Source of the DNA: Ensifer oleiphilus
GTDB lineage: Bacteria > Pseudomonadota > Alphaproteobacteria > Rhizobiales > Rhizobiaceae
NCBI RefSeq assembly: GCF_013371465.1
Contig: NZ_JABWDU010000004.1
Location: 124,001 to 188,000, forward strand
DNA length: 64,000 nucleotides
Direction: 5' to 3'
The first letter of the stretch is position 1. Each line of letters begins with the position of its first letter. Of the stretch, positions 504 through 48,375 are shown in pieces. Both the position numbers and the translations under genes were made by a program. Below the pieces are notes generated by a model. The model made no database searches, had not been told where the DNA came from, and saw only the letters and a list, made by a program, of their open reading frames with translations.

Positions 504-527
504 TCCGCGGATCGCTCACAGTTTCGA

Positions 528-557
528 CGGCGCTCCCGCGGGAGCGCCGTTTTGTTT
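528..557 (+). terminator. Rho-independent terminator of phbB
   Basis: An eleven-base-pair GC stem (528-538 pairing with 539-549, with little or no loop) is followed by TTTTGTTTTTC. It lies just after the phbB stop codon. Confidence 0.85.
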
Positions 558-704
558 TTCAGCGCTACCGCATGCGACGATGGAAGGTTAACGGCATGCA
601 GGAATTCCATCCGGGATCGGCAGGAAATCGGTCCTGCGCCTGTTGCTCACTATGGTCCTGGATACTATATCTTGTGGAGAACAAAAATCGAACGCCAGGA
701 TGTC

Positions 705-1010
705 AACGATTCGTCGTCGATTCGTTCCGGCTTTGGTCGAAGTGTTAATGCAGCGATTCCCATTCCCTGAATCGGGCGATTCCGTCAGATTCTTCGGTTA
801 AAATTTCCTAAACTTTCCAGAGTCTTGGATTCCGAATCCTTTGTCCCTTTTAACGCTTCGGCAGCAAAGATTAACGCCTGCCACACGCTCGGCACACCCT
901 GTTGGCAAAGTGATTCAGCATCTGGTGCGACATTGGCAGTTGAAATCTATATGTAGCCGTGAACATACAGTGAATCGACTGGAGTCAGCGATTCGTCGCC
1001 GATTCGTTCC
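705..1010 (+). repeat. Imperfect 24-base direct repeat (705-728 and 987-1010)
   Basis: The two copies match at 22 of 24 positions. Each holds two GANTC sites 11 bases apart and ends in CGATTCGTTCC. The copies are 282 bases apart inside the non-coding gap. Confidence 0.7.
708..1005. promoter_or_regulatory. Cluster of 14 GANTC (CcrM methylation) sites
   Basis: GANTC occurs at 708, 719, 755, 769, 778, 788, 820, 828, 834, 912, 972, 982, 990 and 1001. About one would be expected by chance in 298 bases. Seven of the thirteen spacings are 8-11 bases, close to one helical turn. CcrM methylates GANTC in alphaproteobacteria and the methylation state affects transcription through GcrA. A role in cell-cycle control of the helicase gene is an inference. 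Confidence 0.6.
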
Positions 1011-1189
1011 ATGGCTGTTCCAGACCTTAATTTTGCGCCTCCAGATATGGTGGTGCGGGCCGGCGCTGATTTGCCGTGAAGCTGTTTTAGTTGCCTGCGC
1101 CCCTTGCGTTTGCTGCGGTGCGTGGGCATGTGTTTGCCGCCGGCGCTTCAAGGCGCCTCTTATGTTTCTGACTGCCCGGGATCGATGAC

Positions 1190-4100
1190 GTGTCCGTTCA
1201 CCCCATGATCCTGAGCGGCCGCGGTGTCACCGCGGTGCTCGGGCCAACCAATACCGGCAAGACGCATTATGCGATCGAGCGCATGATCGCGCACGACAGC
1301 GGCGTCATCGGGCTGCCGCTGCGCCTCTTGGCGCGCGAGGTCTATACGCGCCTGGTCGAAAAGGTCGGTCATCACAACGTCGCGCTGATCACCGGCGAGG
1401 AAAAGATCACCCCGCATCGTGCCCGCTATTCGGTCTGTACCGTCGAGGCGATGCCGCGCGAGACGACGGCATCTTTCGTCGCGATCGATGAAGTGCAGCT
1501 TGCCGGCGATCTGGAGCGTGGCCACATCTTCACCGACCGGCTGCTCTATCTGCGCGGTCGCGGCGAGACGCTGCTTTTGGGGGCTGCGACCATGCGGCCG
1601 ATCCTCGAGCAGCTGTTGCCGGGCATCACCGTCGTCGAGCGCCCGCGCATGTCGCAACTGCTCTATGCCGGGTCGAAGAAGATCACCCGCCTGCCGCATC
1701 GCACGGCGATCGTCGCCTTTTCGGCCGACGAGGTCTATGCGATCGCCGAGCTGATCCGCCGCCAGCGCGGCGGTGCTGCCGTCGTGCTCGGCGCGCTGTC
1801 ACCGCGCACGCGCAACGCTCAGGTCGCGCTCTACCAGGAAGGCGACGTCGAATTTCTGGTGGCGACCGATGCGATCGGTATGGGCCTGAACCTCGATGTC
1901 GACCATGTCGCCTTTGCGCAAGACCGCAAGTTCGACGGCTACCAGTTCCGAAACCTCAATCCGGCCGAGCTGGCGCAGATCGCCGGACGCGCCGGGCGGC
2001 ATCTGCGCGATGGCACGTTTGGCGTTACCGGCCGGGTCGATCCGTTCGACAACGAACTGGTGCACCGCATCGAGGCGCATGAATTCGATCCGCTGAAGGT
2101 GCTGCAATGGCGCACCAAGGCGTTCGACTATGCGTCGCTTGCCGCCCTGAAGCGCAGCCTGGACGCCGCGCCGACAATTCCGGGGCTTGCGCGCGCACTA
2201 CCTGCGGTGGATCAGCAGGCGCTCGAACATTTGTCCCGCTATCCCGAAGTGATGGATCTCGCGACCACACCGGACCGGGTGGAGAAATTGTGGGAAGTCT
2301 GCGCATTGCCGGATTATCGCCGCATTACACCGGCTCAACACGCCGATCTGATCTCCACGATCTATATTGATGTTGTCCGTCGGGGTGCCGTGAACGAGGA
2401 TTTCATGGCAGAACAGGTCCGACGAGCGGATTTTACCGATGGCGAGATCGACACACTTTCGGCGCGAATCGCGCAGATCAGAACCTGGACCTATGTGTCG
2501 AACCGGCCCGGATGGCTTGCCGATCCGACACACTGGCAAGAAAAGACGCGGGAAATTGAAGATCGATTGTCCGACGCACTACATGAACGGTTGACGAAAC
2601 GCTTTGTTGATCGCAGGACATCTGTGCTCATGAAGCGCCTGAGAGAGAATGCTATGCTGGAAGCTGAAATCAGTGTGAATGGTGACGTCTTCGTTGAAGG
2701 CCATCACGTAGGACAACTAACCGGTTTCCGGTTTACGCTGGCGACCGGCGGAGACGGACCGGACGCCAAGGCTGTGCAGGGTGCTGCGCAGAAGGCGCTG
2801 GCGCTCGAGTTCGAAGCGCGTGCGGCGCGTCTGCACGCCTCCGGCAATGGCGACCTTGCGCTGTCGTCCGACGGCCTTGTGCGTTGGCTCGGAGATCCCG
2901 TGGCCCGGCTGACCGCCAGCGACCACGTCATGCGTCCGCGTGTCATCCTGCTTGCCGATGAGCAGCTGCAGGCCAATGCGCGCGAGCATGTGGTTGCCCG
3001 CATCGAGCGCTTCGTGAACCATCATATCGGCACCGTGCTGAAGCCGCTCGACGATATCTCGCGCGCCGAGGATCTCGAAGGTCTCGCCAAGGGTCTTGCC
3101 TTCCAGCTCGTCGAAAATCTCGGCGTCTTGTTCCGCCGCGACGTCGCCGAAGAGGTGAAGTCTCTGGACCAGGACGGCCGCGCCTCCATCCGCAAGTATG
3201 GCGTCCGCTTCGGCGCCTACCACATCTTCCTGCCCGCTCTGTTGAAGCCGGCTCCGGCCGAGCTGATCACGCTGCTGTGGGCGTTGAAGAATGACGGCCT
3301 CGACAAGGCGGGCTACGGCGATCTGATCCCGATGCTGGCTGCCGGTCGCACGTCTGTTGTCACCGACCCCTCGTTCGAGCGGACTTTCTACAAGCTCGCG
3401 GGTTTCCGTTTCCTCGGCAAGCGTGCCGTTCGCATCGATATCCTCGAGCGTCTGGCGGATCTCATCCGTCCGTTGCTGCAGTGGAAGCCGGGTGCGCAGC
3501 CGCGTCCGGAAGGCGCCTATGACGGCCGGCGCTTTACCGCGACGACCTCGATGCTCTCCATTCTCGGCGCAACGCCTGACGATATGGAAGAAATCCTCAA
3601 GGGTCTTGGCTACCGCGCGGACAGCGTGAAGGCCGAAGACGCAGCCACGTTCCTGGCAAGCCAGGGCGGCGCTGTTGCCGCTCAGGCCGAGCCTGCTGCC
3701 GAAGTGGCTGCCGATCACGACGATGCGGATGCAAGCGCCGACGCCGAGCCGGCGGCCGAAGCTGAGGCGCCTGCCTCTGCGGAGCCTGTGGCCGTCGAAG
3801 GCGAAGCGGTTGCTGCTCATGCGCCTGCGGAAGACGGGGCCGAGGCTGTCGAAGCCAAGCCGGTACTCCTCTGGCGTCCGGGCACCCGCCAGGACAACCA
3901 GCGCCAAGGTGGCCGCCCTCAGGGCGATCAGCGCCGTGGCGGCGGTCAGCGCCAGGGGCACGGACAGGGACAAGCCCAGGGCGAGGGACGTGAAGGCGGC
4001 GGCCGCAAGGGCGGTGCACCGGCCCGCGGCAAACGCCACGACGGCAAGTCCGAGGGTGGCCAGCGTCAGGATCGCCATGATCGCCACGATCGTGGCGGCA

Positions 4101-4210
4101 AGCCCAACGCGGCCAAGTTCGAGGCCCGCCCGCCGCGCAAGGAGAAGCCGATCGATCCGGATTCGCCCTTTGCCAAGCTTGCTGCTCTCAAGGAGCAGAT
4201 GAAGAAGTAG
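1190..4210 (+). CDS. Suv3-like superfamily 2 RNA helicase with disordered C-terminal tail
   Basis: The 1006-residue protein starts with GTG; an ATG five codons later (1205) is an equally possible start. The helicase core has Walker A GPTNTGKT (about 18-25), motif II DEVQ (about 100-103) and motif VI QIAGRAGR (about 262-269). This order, and the lack of a spacer before Walker A, match the mitochondrial Suv3/alphaproteobacterial family of ATP-dependent RNA helicases. From about residue 825 the protein is Ala/Glu-rich, then from about 897 to 970 rich in Gly, Gln, Arg and His with RGG-like pieces, and is probably disordered and RNA-binding. The gene may be coupled to the S4-domain gene that begins 7 bases after its stop. 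Bases of about 2250-2720 are visibly poorer in GC than the rest of the gene. A role in RNA turnover is inferred from the family. Confidence 0.88.
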   Translation: MSVHPMILSGRGVTAVLGPTNTGKTHYAIERMIAHDSGVIGLPLRLLAREVYTRLVEKVGHHNVALITGEEKITPHRARYSVCTVEAMPRETTASFVAIDEVQLAGDLERGHIFTDRLLYLRGRGETLLLGAATMRPILEQLLPGITVVERPRMSQLLYAGSKKITRLPHRTAIVAFSADEVYAIAELIRRQRGGAAVVLGALSPRTRNAQVALYQEGDVEFLVATDAIGMGLNLDVDHVAFAQDRKFDGYQFRNLNPAELAQIAGRAGRHLRDGTFGVTGRVDPFDNELVHRIEAHEFDPLKVLQWRTKAFDYASLAALKRSLDAAPTIPGLARALPAVDQQALEHLSRYPEVMDLATTPDRVEKLWEVCALPDYRRITPAQHADLISTIYIDVVRRGAVNEDFMAEQVRRADFTDGEIDTLSARIAQIRTWTYVSNRPGWLADPTHWQEKTREIEDRLSDALHERLTKRFVDRRTSVLMKRLRENAMLEAEISVNGDVFVEGHHVGQLTGFRFTLATGGDGPDAKAVQGAAQKALALEFEARAARLHASGNGDLALSSDGLVRWLGDPVARLTASDHVMRPRVILLADEQLQANAREHVVARIERFVNHHIGTVLKPLDDISRAEDLEGLAKGLAFQLVENLGVLFRRDVAEEVKSLDQDGRASIRKYGVRFGAYHIFLPALLKPAPAELITLLWALKNDGLDKAGYGDLIPMLAAGRTSVVTDPSFERTFYKLAGFRFLGKRAVRIDILERLADLIRPLLQWKPGAQPRPEGAYDGRRFTATTSMLSILGATPDDMEEILKGLGYRADSVKAEDAATFLASQGGAVAAQAEPAAEVAADHDDADASADAEPAAEAEAPASAEPVAVEGEAVAAHAPAEDGAEAVEAKPVLLWRPGTRQDNQRQGGRPQGDQRRGGGQRQGHGQGQAQGEGREGGGRKGGAPARGKRHDGKSEGGQRQDRHDRHDRGGKPNAAKFEARPPRKEKPIDPDSPFAKLAALKEQMKK

Positions 4211-12718: not shown

Positions 12719-12781
12719 GGCAGGCACCTCTCCCTAAAAATGATATTGCACGGGAAAAGGGCGTATCGATCCGATCGCGTC

Positions 12782-12882
12782 TAATCCCTCCGCCGGTATG
12801 AGCCGGATCAGGTTCCGCGGGTTGGCGTTAAACGCCTCTCAGCCTTCGGCCAGCATGTGGTCGGAAGGCACCCCGTTAGAGC
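12782..12882 (-). promoter_or_regulatory. TPP (thiamine pyrophosphate) riboswitch
   Basis: On the minus strand the region contains the conserved THI-box pieces in order: GGGGTGC, GGCTGAGA, the variable P3 hairpin with GGCGTTTAACGCC, ACCCGCGGAACCTGATCC, and TACCGGCGGAGGGA. It ends about 60 bases before the thiB start. Binding of TPP should shut off thiBPQ expression. Confidence 0.95.
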
Positions 12883-13061
12883 GGGTAGAGATTTACCGCC
12901 GCGACGGTTTGATGGCAAGCGAAGTTTGAACGCTGGCATCCTGCAGTCCGACGCTCGCGATGCTGCGAAGCCTGATGACATCAGCGCAAAATCACCGGAT
13001 CGCCCCGTCGTTCGGTTTTCTTGCTTTTCCTTGGCCGTGCCTTTGCGCTATGGGCTTTGCC

Positions 13062-31196: not shown

Positions 31197-31205
31197 TTAT
31201 CCACA
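31197..31205 (+). promoter_or_regulatory. Perfect DnaA box
   Basis: TTATCCACA matches the consensus exactly. It lies 112 bases upstream of the Bax-inhibitor-1 family gene, with TTAACCGT at 31100 and a GANTC site at 31149 in the same gap. A single box may be chance. Confidence 0.4.
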
Positions 31206-31316
31206 GGCATGCTGGAGCCCCGCAGCGGCGCCTGGGCATGGGATGGCGACCTCTCGTTGGGTCTGAGGTCATCCGCCCGACACCGTAAGTTCAACCGGGG
31301 CTTAAATGAGGAAACA

Positions 31317-48060: not shown

Positions 48061-48375
48061 TCTCGCTGCTCTGCGGGCCTGTCGCGGTCGTCACCGCCAC
48101 GGATGACGTCGATGACTGAAGTCCTTGCTGCGGGATTTGCCTGCCGTTCTTGACTTTTCGGGCGCTTTCCTGTTTATCGCGGCAAATTCCTTCGCAAGTG
48201 ATGACTTCGAAGCCACCGACCCGGCCCCGTCAAGGTATAAAGAGAGCCAGGAGGTCAACACCCGACAGCGCGTTGCGCCCTCGGGTGGTTTTTGGCTTTG
48301 CGCCTTGTTTTTCGGGCGAAGGAACCCACGTTTCCGGCTAGTTTGCATGCTGCCGGAAACCAGAAGGAAGTGAGA
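48061..48375 (+). other. Non-coding leader of ffh
   Basis: These 315 bases contain a sigma-70-like promoter (48150-48178) and then a 190-base leader. I see no gene or clear riboswitch in the leader. Confidence 0.5.
48150..48178 (+). promoter_or_regulatory. Possible sigma-70 promoter of ffh
   Basis: TTGACT (48150-48155), 17 bases, TTTATC (48173-48178). The -35 element is good and the -10 is weak, as is common in alphaproteobacteria. Confidence 0.4.

Follow-up and report, generated by a model that had tools for sequence, protein, structure and literature searches.

A GANTC-dense gap upstream of a Suv3-like RNA helicase gene carries a conserved, 11-bp-phased array in Ensifer oleiphilus and its relatives

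RESULTS

A gene-free gap before a helicase gene

The window analyzed here is a 64-kb stretch of the Ensifer oleiphilus genome (C27:124001-188000 of 6.76 Mb). Near its start, phbB is followed by a gap and then by a gene for an RNA helicase resembling Suv3, a relative of the mitochondrial RNA-turnover helicase. A preliminary description of this DNA had called the gap gene-free and had placed it between these two genes. The open reading frame (ORF) list and the helicase domains agree with this description: ORFs inside the gap reach at most 115 aa, the longer ones enter out of frame from phbB, and none was taken for a gene. The gap gave no match to Rfam at the gathering score. Elsewhere in the window, Rfam identified a TPP riboswitch (12768-12885, minus strand), a ybhL leader (31204-31305, plus strand), and an ffh small RNA (sRNA) (48244-48294, plus strand). 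The closest named relatives of the helicase protein are from Sinorhizobium and Ensifer (best identity, 98%), and we infer that the gene is likely the orthologue of S. meliloti SMc03877/mgpS. That gene is listed among the helicases raised under acid stress in PMC4941405.

504..1189, no strand: gap between phbB and the Suv3-like helicase gene, without genes, holding the GANTC cluster
527..550, no strand: perfect 12-bp inverted repeat with T-rich tail, likely the phbB terminator
1190..4210, plus strand: Suv3-like RNA helicase gene, domains DEXQc_Suv3 and Helicase_C
GANTC site starts: 708, 719, 755, 769, 778, 788, 820, 828, 834, 912, 972, 982, 990, 1001

GANTC sites are concentrated in the gap

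A site scan found 14 GANTC sites within 298 bp (708-1005), the number first reported, and this cluster withstood both shuffling and palindrome controls. The whole window contains 71 GANTC sites, the cluster's 14 included, against a mean of 345 in whole-window shuffles; GANTC is thus avoided elsewhere in the window and concentrated at the cluster. Within the 686-bp gap, the 14 sites compare with a shuffle mean of 3.3 and a maximum of 11 in 2000 shuffles, and the densest 298-bp stretch of any shuffle held 7. Among the 16 N-centred palindromic 5-mers, GANTC alone is strongly raised (14 sites, where the remainder of the window predicts 0.62); the second-largest excess in the gap is that of AANTT (4 versus 1.03 expected).

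Relative to what the composition of the window predicts, the sites are enriched about 9-fold; relative to the rate seen in the genome, about 47-fold. The preliminary figure of fourteen times chance lies between these values, and the cluster and its excess are real. Successive sites are spaced by 11, 36, 14, 9, 10, 32, 8, 6, 78, 60, 10, 8, and 11 bp; five of these 13 spacings are 9 to 11 bp, so the statement that half are near one helical turn was slightly generous.

We ranked GANTC density across 1,599,137 bp, or 24% of the genome, and the other 76% could hold further dense windows. This part contains 1582 sites, or one every 1011 bp; PMC8725594 reports a similar density for non-symbiotic Ensifer strains, 1.06 per kb. 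Outside the cluster no 298-bp window exceeds 6 sites, and the next densest hold 6, 6, and 5. The region upstream of this genome's own gcrA is therefore the joint second-densest GANTC window of the part read.

C11:465413-465556: 6 GANTC, gcrA upstream region (gcrA match C11:464856-465377, minus strand)
C11:291963-292233: 6 GANTC, rpsT-dnaA gap, 0.6 to 0.9 kb before the dnaA ORF (rpsT named by reading its sequence, dnaA by Pfam Bac_DnaA)
C27:15088 (rho-trmE border) and four places on C11: 5 GANTC each

The five sites at the rho-trmE border (C27:15088-15371, L084) lie about 2 kb from hemE and thus near the presumed chromosome origin. Five GANTC sites at C11:580025-580145 (L178) immediately follow a long ORF that is FliF-like by sequence.

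The gap carries a 60-bp phased unit twice

A 27-bp repeat (702-728 and 984-1010, 93% identity) was the lead to a longer unit of 60 bp, which occurs at 679-738 and 961-1020, about 282 bp apart.

663..674, plus strand: CTATATCTTG, short block preceding array A, possible promoter -10
679..738, plus strand: unit A, distal array (model R1, E 1.5e-14): GAAC 679-682 and GAAC 690-693 (exact GAACN7GAAC), GATTCG 708-713, GATTCGTTC 719-727, GGTC 735-738
797..841, plus strand: conserved block with three GANTC sites (820, 828, 834), Sinorhizobium-specific
912..927, plus strand: GATTCAGCATNTGGTG, conserved block preceding unit B, GATTC present in 18/18
945..956, plus strand: CTATATGTAG, short block preceding array B, possible promoter -10
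961..1020, plus strand: unit B, helicase-proximal array (model R1, E 1.3e-18): GAAC 961-964, GAATC 972-976, GAGTC 982-986, GATTCG 990-995, GATTCGTTC 1001-1009, exact GTTCN7GTTC 1006-1020

The unit consensus was built from 59 copies, from 41 copies including other families, and from 167 copies in 111 loci. Counted from the first G, it reads GAAC at 0-3, GAA at 11-13, GTC at 23-25, GATTCG at 29-34, GTTC at 45-48, and GTTC at 56-59. The steps are 11 and 12 bp, followed by 11-bp steps between GTC at 23, G at 34, GTTC at 45, and GTTC at 56. Half-sites recurring every 11 bp, with one step of 12, would suit a protein whose subunits are ranged along a single face of the helix. Indels are rare inside the array. 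GANTC falls at offset 29 in 0.95 of the units (weighted), at 40 in 0.54, at 21 in 0.48, and at 11 in 0.32. The array centre reads YGATTCG in 154 of the 167 units, which remained of 168 hidden Markov model (HMM) hits after a template filter that itself includes GATTCG. All four YGAKTCG sites of the gap (707, 718, 989, and 1000) sit in the arrays. The block before each array has the consensus C-N-A-N-A-T-N-T-N-G, and its distance to the array varies by a base or two.

Two other explanations of the unit were rejected by eye. For a short peptide in unit A (33 codons, ATG near 699), neither the start codon nor the frame is kept in relatives. ECF-sigma promoters have the form GGAAC-N16/17-CGTT, and the spacing of the array does not fit.

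Conservation within the gap was examined in an alignment of 18 Sinorhizobium/Ensifer sequences (the window plus 17 Sinorhizobium loci). Ten of the 14 GANTC sites are kept in at least 16 of the 18 (708, 755, 820, 828, 834, 912, 972, 982, 990, and 1001); the site at 719 is kept in 11, 769 in 13, 778 in 3, and 788 in 4. Identity is 0.93 in array B, lower in array A at 0.73, 0.92 at 911-928, and 0.90 in the predicted promoter described below, and falls to 0.59 to 0.61 at 842-908 and 1025-1084. The block at 797-841 averages 0.92, contains a one-mismatch CtrA-type TTAAN7TTAA at 798, and was not found in the other 63 Rhizobiaceae loci. Beyond the genus, most of the conservation consists of the two copies of the 11-bp-phased array, of which GANTC is only one component; the preliminary description had overlooked this array.

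The unit accompanies the helicase gene in relatives

Model R1, which uses sequence only, gave two strong matches in the E. oleiphilus genome, units A and B; the next best had an E value of 0.24, and the gcrA upstream region held no copy. At E 0.01 or better it matched 89 of 121 family genomes and 134 of 199 order genomes, leaving 65 of the 199 without a match; these counts are of relatives that are not independent of one another, and the copies used to build models R1 and R2 are among those that the models recover. A profile of 908-1025 matched 73 of 80 Rhizobiaceae helicase loci, often repeatedly, and a second, broader profile (HMM) placed the unit in 72 of the 80 and left 8 without it. The cluster was thus sought at the equivalent place in relatives, as the preliminary description had proposed, and its sites proved to be conserved.

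In 20 of 20 loci from 11 other families, hand-picked from the order-wide matches and mostly strong ones, the unit precedes the Suv3-like helicase gene, on the strand of that gene. Beyond the unit, 18 of these 20 loci have S4, fdxA, or CarD genes. A search of 190 genomes of the class with model R2 gave matches in 17 from other orders, in 15 of which the unit is upstream of the helicase on the same strand; of the two exceptions, L134 has no helicase by tblastn and L146 (E 2.1e-4) looks false. "Upstream" is counted here from the start of the tblastn match, at 129 to 848 bp in the other families and 165 to 986 bp in the other orders, and small intervening genes are possible. In a class sample chosen by the helicase alone, 4 of 29 loci had the unit and 25 lacked it (best E of a reversed-sequence control, 2.4). 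Set against the 134 of 199 order genomes, this fraction indicates that the array is widespread in the Hyphomicrobiales and patchy beyond. The loci and genomes that lack matches (8/80, 65/199, and 25/29) show that the helicase gene can do without the unit. In L039 and L053, phbB ends 172 to 173 bp before the helicase, with zero GANTC between them.

The transposed module suggested earlier is not supported, the unit having a single locus in its own genome and an equivalent place in relatives. phbB was found upstream in 50 of the 80 Rhizobiaceae loci, and the partner gene is therefore the helicase rather than phbB.

Copy number varies among loci. L081 has up to five copies in one gap, spread between -1846 and -276 relative to the helicase, with a spacing of about 248 bp among three of them, and two to five copies per gap also occur in L078, L079, L073, and L076. 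Small ORFs on the opposite strand (glycine-rich lipoprotein-like and short membrane protein-like) lie between unit copies in L081 and L045. L113, L119, and L128, of one family (f40), have GTT(T/C)C-N5-GAAAC near-palindromes about 100 bp upstream of the units. In L023, L025 to L028, L132, and L133, a DnaA-type box, TTATCCAC(A), followed by a nearby TTAAC or GGTTAAC-like word, lies upstream of the distal or only unit.

GANTC is enriched around the arrays within the order

The enrichment extends to DNA outside the arrays. In the 700 bp before the helicase of the 80 Rhizobiaceae loci, arrays excluded, GANTC occurs at 6.91 per kb versus 1.89 in whole loci, a 3.66-fold excess; seven other palindromes outside the arrays in those loci range from 0.86 to 1.41 times the locus average. 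In 72 of the 80 loci, the 2.1 kb preceding the helicase contain the densest 298-bp GANTC window of the locus; this window is tied in 2 and lies elsewhere in 6. Among 37 far loci, it lies before the helicase in 20, is tied in 9, and is elsewhere in 8. Eight of the 37 (L111, L112, L115, L118, L120, L121, L125, and L147), all within the order, hold 10 to 14 GANTC sites per 298 bp. Outside the order there are often only 1 to 6 near the array. The array therefore appears to be older than the methylation-site density, and dense methylation would not have been its original function.

A predicted promoter keeps its distance from the unit

1104..1131, plus strand: predicted helicase promoter TTGCG-N17-GCATGT, with a putative transcription start near 1138

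A generic sigma-70 scan of 480-1250 found no promoter. The pattern TTGCG-N17-SCATNT, which was written after viewing the alignment, occurs within 220 bp upstream of the gene in 39 of 81 loci (0.006 expected per locus), and its spacer is 17 in all 39, though 15 to 19 were allowed. The nearest unit starts about 106 to 159 bp before the pattern in 37 of the 39 loci and 776 bp before it in L061 and L074. In L012, L015, and L017, about 187 bp rather than 86 separate the promoter from the gene, and the unit is shifted likewise by about 100 bp, so that it is still 138 to 141 bp from the promoter, as in other loci. In the window, 84 bp lie between unit B and the predicted promoter, which holds zero GANTC; other promoters may lie inside the cluster.

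DISCUSSION

A methylation-linked control region is the preferred interpretation

Many alphaproteobacteria rely on CcrM methylation as a central element of the cell cycle, yet to our knowledge few CcrM targets and essentially one general reader, GcrA, have been described. The conserved, GANTC-rich gap looks like a control region rather than a product of chance. Because it is conserved and specifically enriched in GANTC, it is probably a CcrM-related regulatory element, and the CcrM-related switch of the preliminary description thus stands in this qualified form.

The interpretation that we favor, holding it somewhat better than an even bet, is that an ancient upstream element controlling the helicase occupies the gap, that it gained dense CcrM sites in the Hyphomicrobiales, and that it couples expression of the gene to replication. 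The array and surrounding DNA, filled with CcrM sites in this order, would be turned from fully methylated to hemimethylated by a passing fork, and late in the cycle CcrM would restore full methylation. The array would bind a regulator, for which the candidates are GcrA, through the extended YGAKTCG core, and LexA, through the GTTCN7GTTC pairs. Methylation of GANTC would alter the binding of this regulator and, from about 120 to 460 bp upstream, might change how often the helicase promoter fires. The outcome would be an RNA-turnover helicase tied to replication and perhaps to DNA damage.

Control of the helicase in cis is our main inference, because the unit keeps its partner gene, its strand, and its distance from the predicted promoter. 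Three observations suggest methylation dependence: the excess is specific to GANTC, the runners-up in density are gcrA and dnaA, and in A. tumefaciens a gcrA promoter with 6 GANTC sites is less active when methylated (PMC11514494). The same paper reports that CcrM depletion raised SOS genes, which would fit either candidate regulator. YGAKTCG or YGAKTCK is quoted as the extended GcrA motif, from Haakonsen et al., in PMC7987155 and PMC8725594. Several points count against this interpretation. The generic scan missed the promoter, the array often has few GANTC sites near it outside the order, and some loci and genomes lack the unit altogether. GcrA is described as acting on promoters together with sigma-70 in PMC7987155, whereas the predicted promoter lies beyond unit B; and a GANTC site in an Ensifer promoter is no predictor of regulation through the cell cycle (PMC8725594). 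The presence of CcrM and GcrA is uninformative as a correlate because they are too widespread. The genome encodes a CcrM-type RAMA domain (C11:902512) and GcrA (C11:464856); the RAMA domain occurs in 24 of 24 unit-bearing genomes tested and also in 44 of 58 of the class sample, and GcrA in 194 of 199 order genomes.

Other interpretations of the array

The alphaproteobacterial LexA operator is GTTCN7GTTC, and the array could be an SOS operator in which LexA dimers occupy the facing GAACN7GAAC and GTTCN7GTTC pairs of each unit and, by looping or coating the DNA, keep the helicase repressed until damage occurs, the GANTC sites having been added later. We regard this as unlikely. The gap has exactly four GTTCN7GTTC matches at one mismatch or fewer, and all are array pairs: those at 679 and 1006 are exact, and those at 724 and 961 each have one mismatch. 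Of 167 units, 98 carry an exact box, or more than one, at a fixed offset (86 right, 18 left), against 144 exact boxes in 1.55 Mb of loci. Exact boxes in this genome also precede a ComM-like gene (Mg_chelatase family) and a putative ImuA ORF, the latter named from sequence and without a Pfam match; the 1.6 Mb read contain 46 exact boxes in all, these two included. However, LexA explains neither the GTC at +23, nor the near-invariant GATTCG, nor the GANTC excess outside the arrays, and the left box is mostly degenerate (GAACN7GAA followed by a non-C in 116 of 167 units). The nearest exact box ends 84 bp before the -35 of the promoter, itself predicted, so the two do not overlap, and SOS induction of the helicase gene goes unmentioned in the available portions of the literature on the gene.

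A replication or nucleoid site, with the helicase a mere neighbor as hemE is of oriC, would use hemimethylated, phased GANTC to recruit a sequestration or DnaA-titrating complex, as datA and SeqA do; we think this improbable. Dense phased methylation sites suit it, and the DNA just upstream of the units is rich in DnaA-like boxes (TTATCCACA, one mismatch or fewer; 0.68 per kb versus 0.10 in loci) and in GTTAA (7.57 versus 0.52 per kb). TTAACCAT-like words are raised there as well (2.52 versus 0.38 per kb), and with these words CtrA and DnaA come into consideration as binding proteins. These three elements occur in only 16, 56, and 41 of 111 loci, respectively, and are weak in the window, where the gap has a single DnaA-like box (673, one mismatch; up to two allowed). 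The Sinorhizobium origin presumably adjoins hemE, and 17 of 19 genomes measured have the unit no further than about 0.8 Mb from that gene. The distance nevertheless ranges from 37 kb to 2.3 Mb among the 19, with no constant position, so the replication-linked element proposed at the outset is not borne out. An oriC or origin-like site was rejected as a first choice, since hemE is about 111 kb away in this genome and at varying distances elsewhere; the GC skew of contig C27 has no clean switch. The persistent link to the helicase and the fixed strand relative to it favor cis regulation, and PMC5172544 states that a hemimethylated-DNA reader of the SeqA kind is encoded only in gammaproteobacteria. 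A bolder interpretation, just as improbable as the replication site, makes the arrays the loading site of a new alphaproteobacterial reader of phased (hemi)methylated GANTC, a functional counterpart of SeqA that would polymerise on the 11-bp repeats and time the helicase to the fork.

Slightly less probable still is that each unit, starting with a CTATAT-like box, is transcribed alone as a small-RNA promoter or gene. CTATAT precedes both arrays within the conserved block described above, and the units are repeatable, up to five in L081. Against this, the unit belongs to no Rfam family, RNAalifold on 59 copies gave five weak predicted pairs, none with two-sided change and hence none covarying, and a terminator scan found none between units A and B; rigid 11-bp phasing better suits DNA binding. 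An RNA stem GUGAAC/GUUCAC, judged by eye, was rejected because it is formed in some copies and broken in others. That the cluster is a product of chance or a mobile repeat is practically refuted by the shuffles, the conservation, the single locus in the genome, and the equivalent place in relatives.

Meaning and comparison with known systems

Within the sequence read, GANTC sites are denser in the cluster than at gcrA or dnaA, and the gene that it probably controls encodes an RNA helicase. Being conserved throughout an order and patchily in the class, the non-coding array also offers a defined DNA bait for methylation readers. A study of CcrM targets in Ensifer used 125 bp upstream of transcripts (PMC8725594); if the predicted promoter is right, the nearest GANTC ends about 133 bp before the start, and such a rule would miss the cluster. 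In the main texts of the open-access literature examined, we found no description of the array or of a GANTC cluster at the helicase gene. The locus is best filed as a conserved methylation-dense regulatory region distinguished by its phased array, which is unusual, and by the unexpected gene that it would control.

The gcrA promoter of the related A. tumefaciens likewise has CcrM sites packed densely before a chromosomal gene; it differs in its density, 6 sites per 250 bp versus 14 per 298 bp here, and in that methylation dependence was measured there (PMC11514494). The methylation-dependent GcrA/sigma-70 promoters of Caulobacter share the extended YGAKTCG motif, to which the YGATTCG at the array centre conforms, whereas here several phased copies lie upstream of a predicted promoter. 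Four array pairs have the form of alphaproteobacterial LexA operators or are one letter off; unlike such operators, they are facing pairs, with GANTC iterons between and beside them, at least 84 bp before the predicted promoter. In the SeqA/GATC clusters and datA of E. coli, helically spaced methylation sites become hemimethylated, as those of the array would, but the methylase and the motif are different, and the sites described here are tied to one gene rather than to a fixed distance from the origin.
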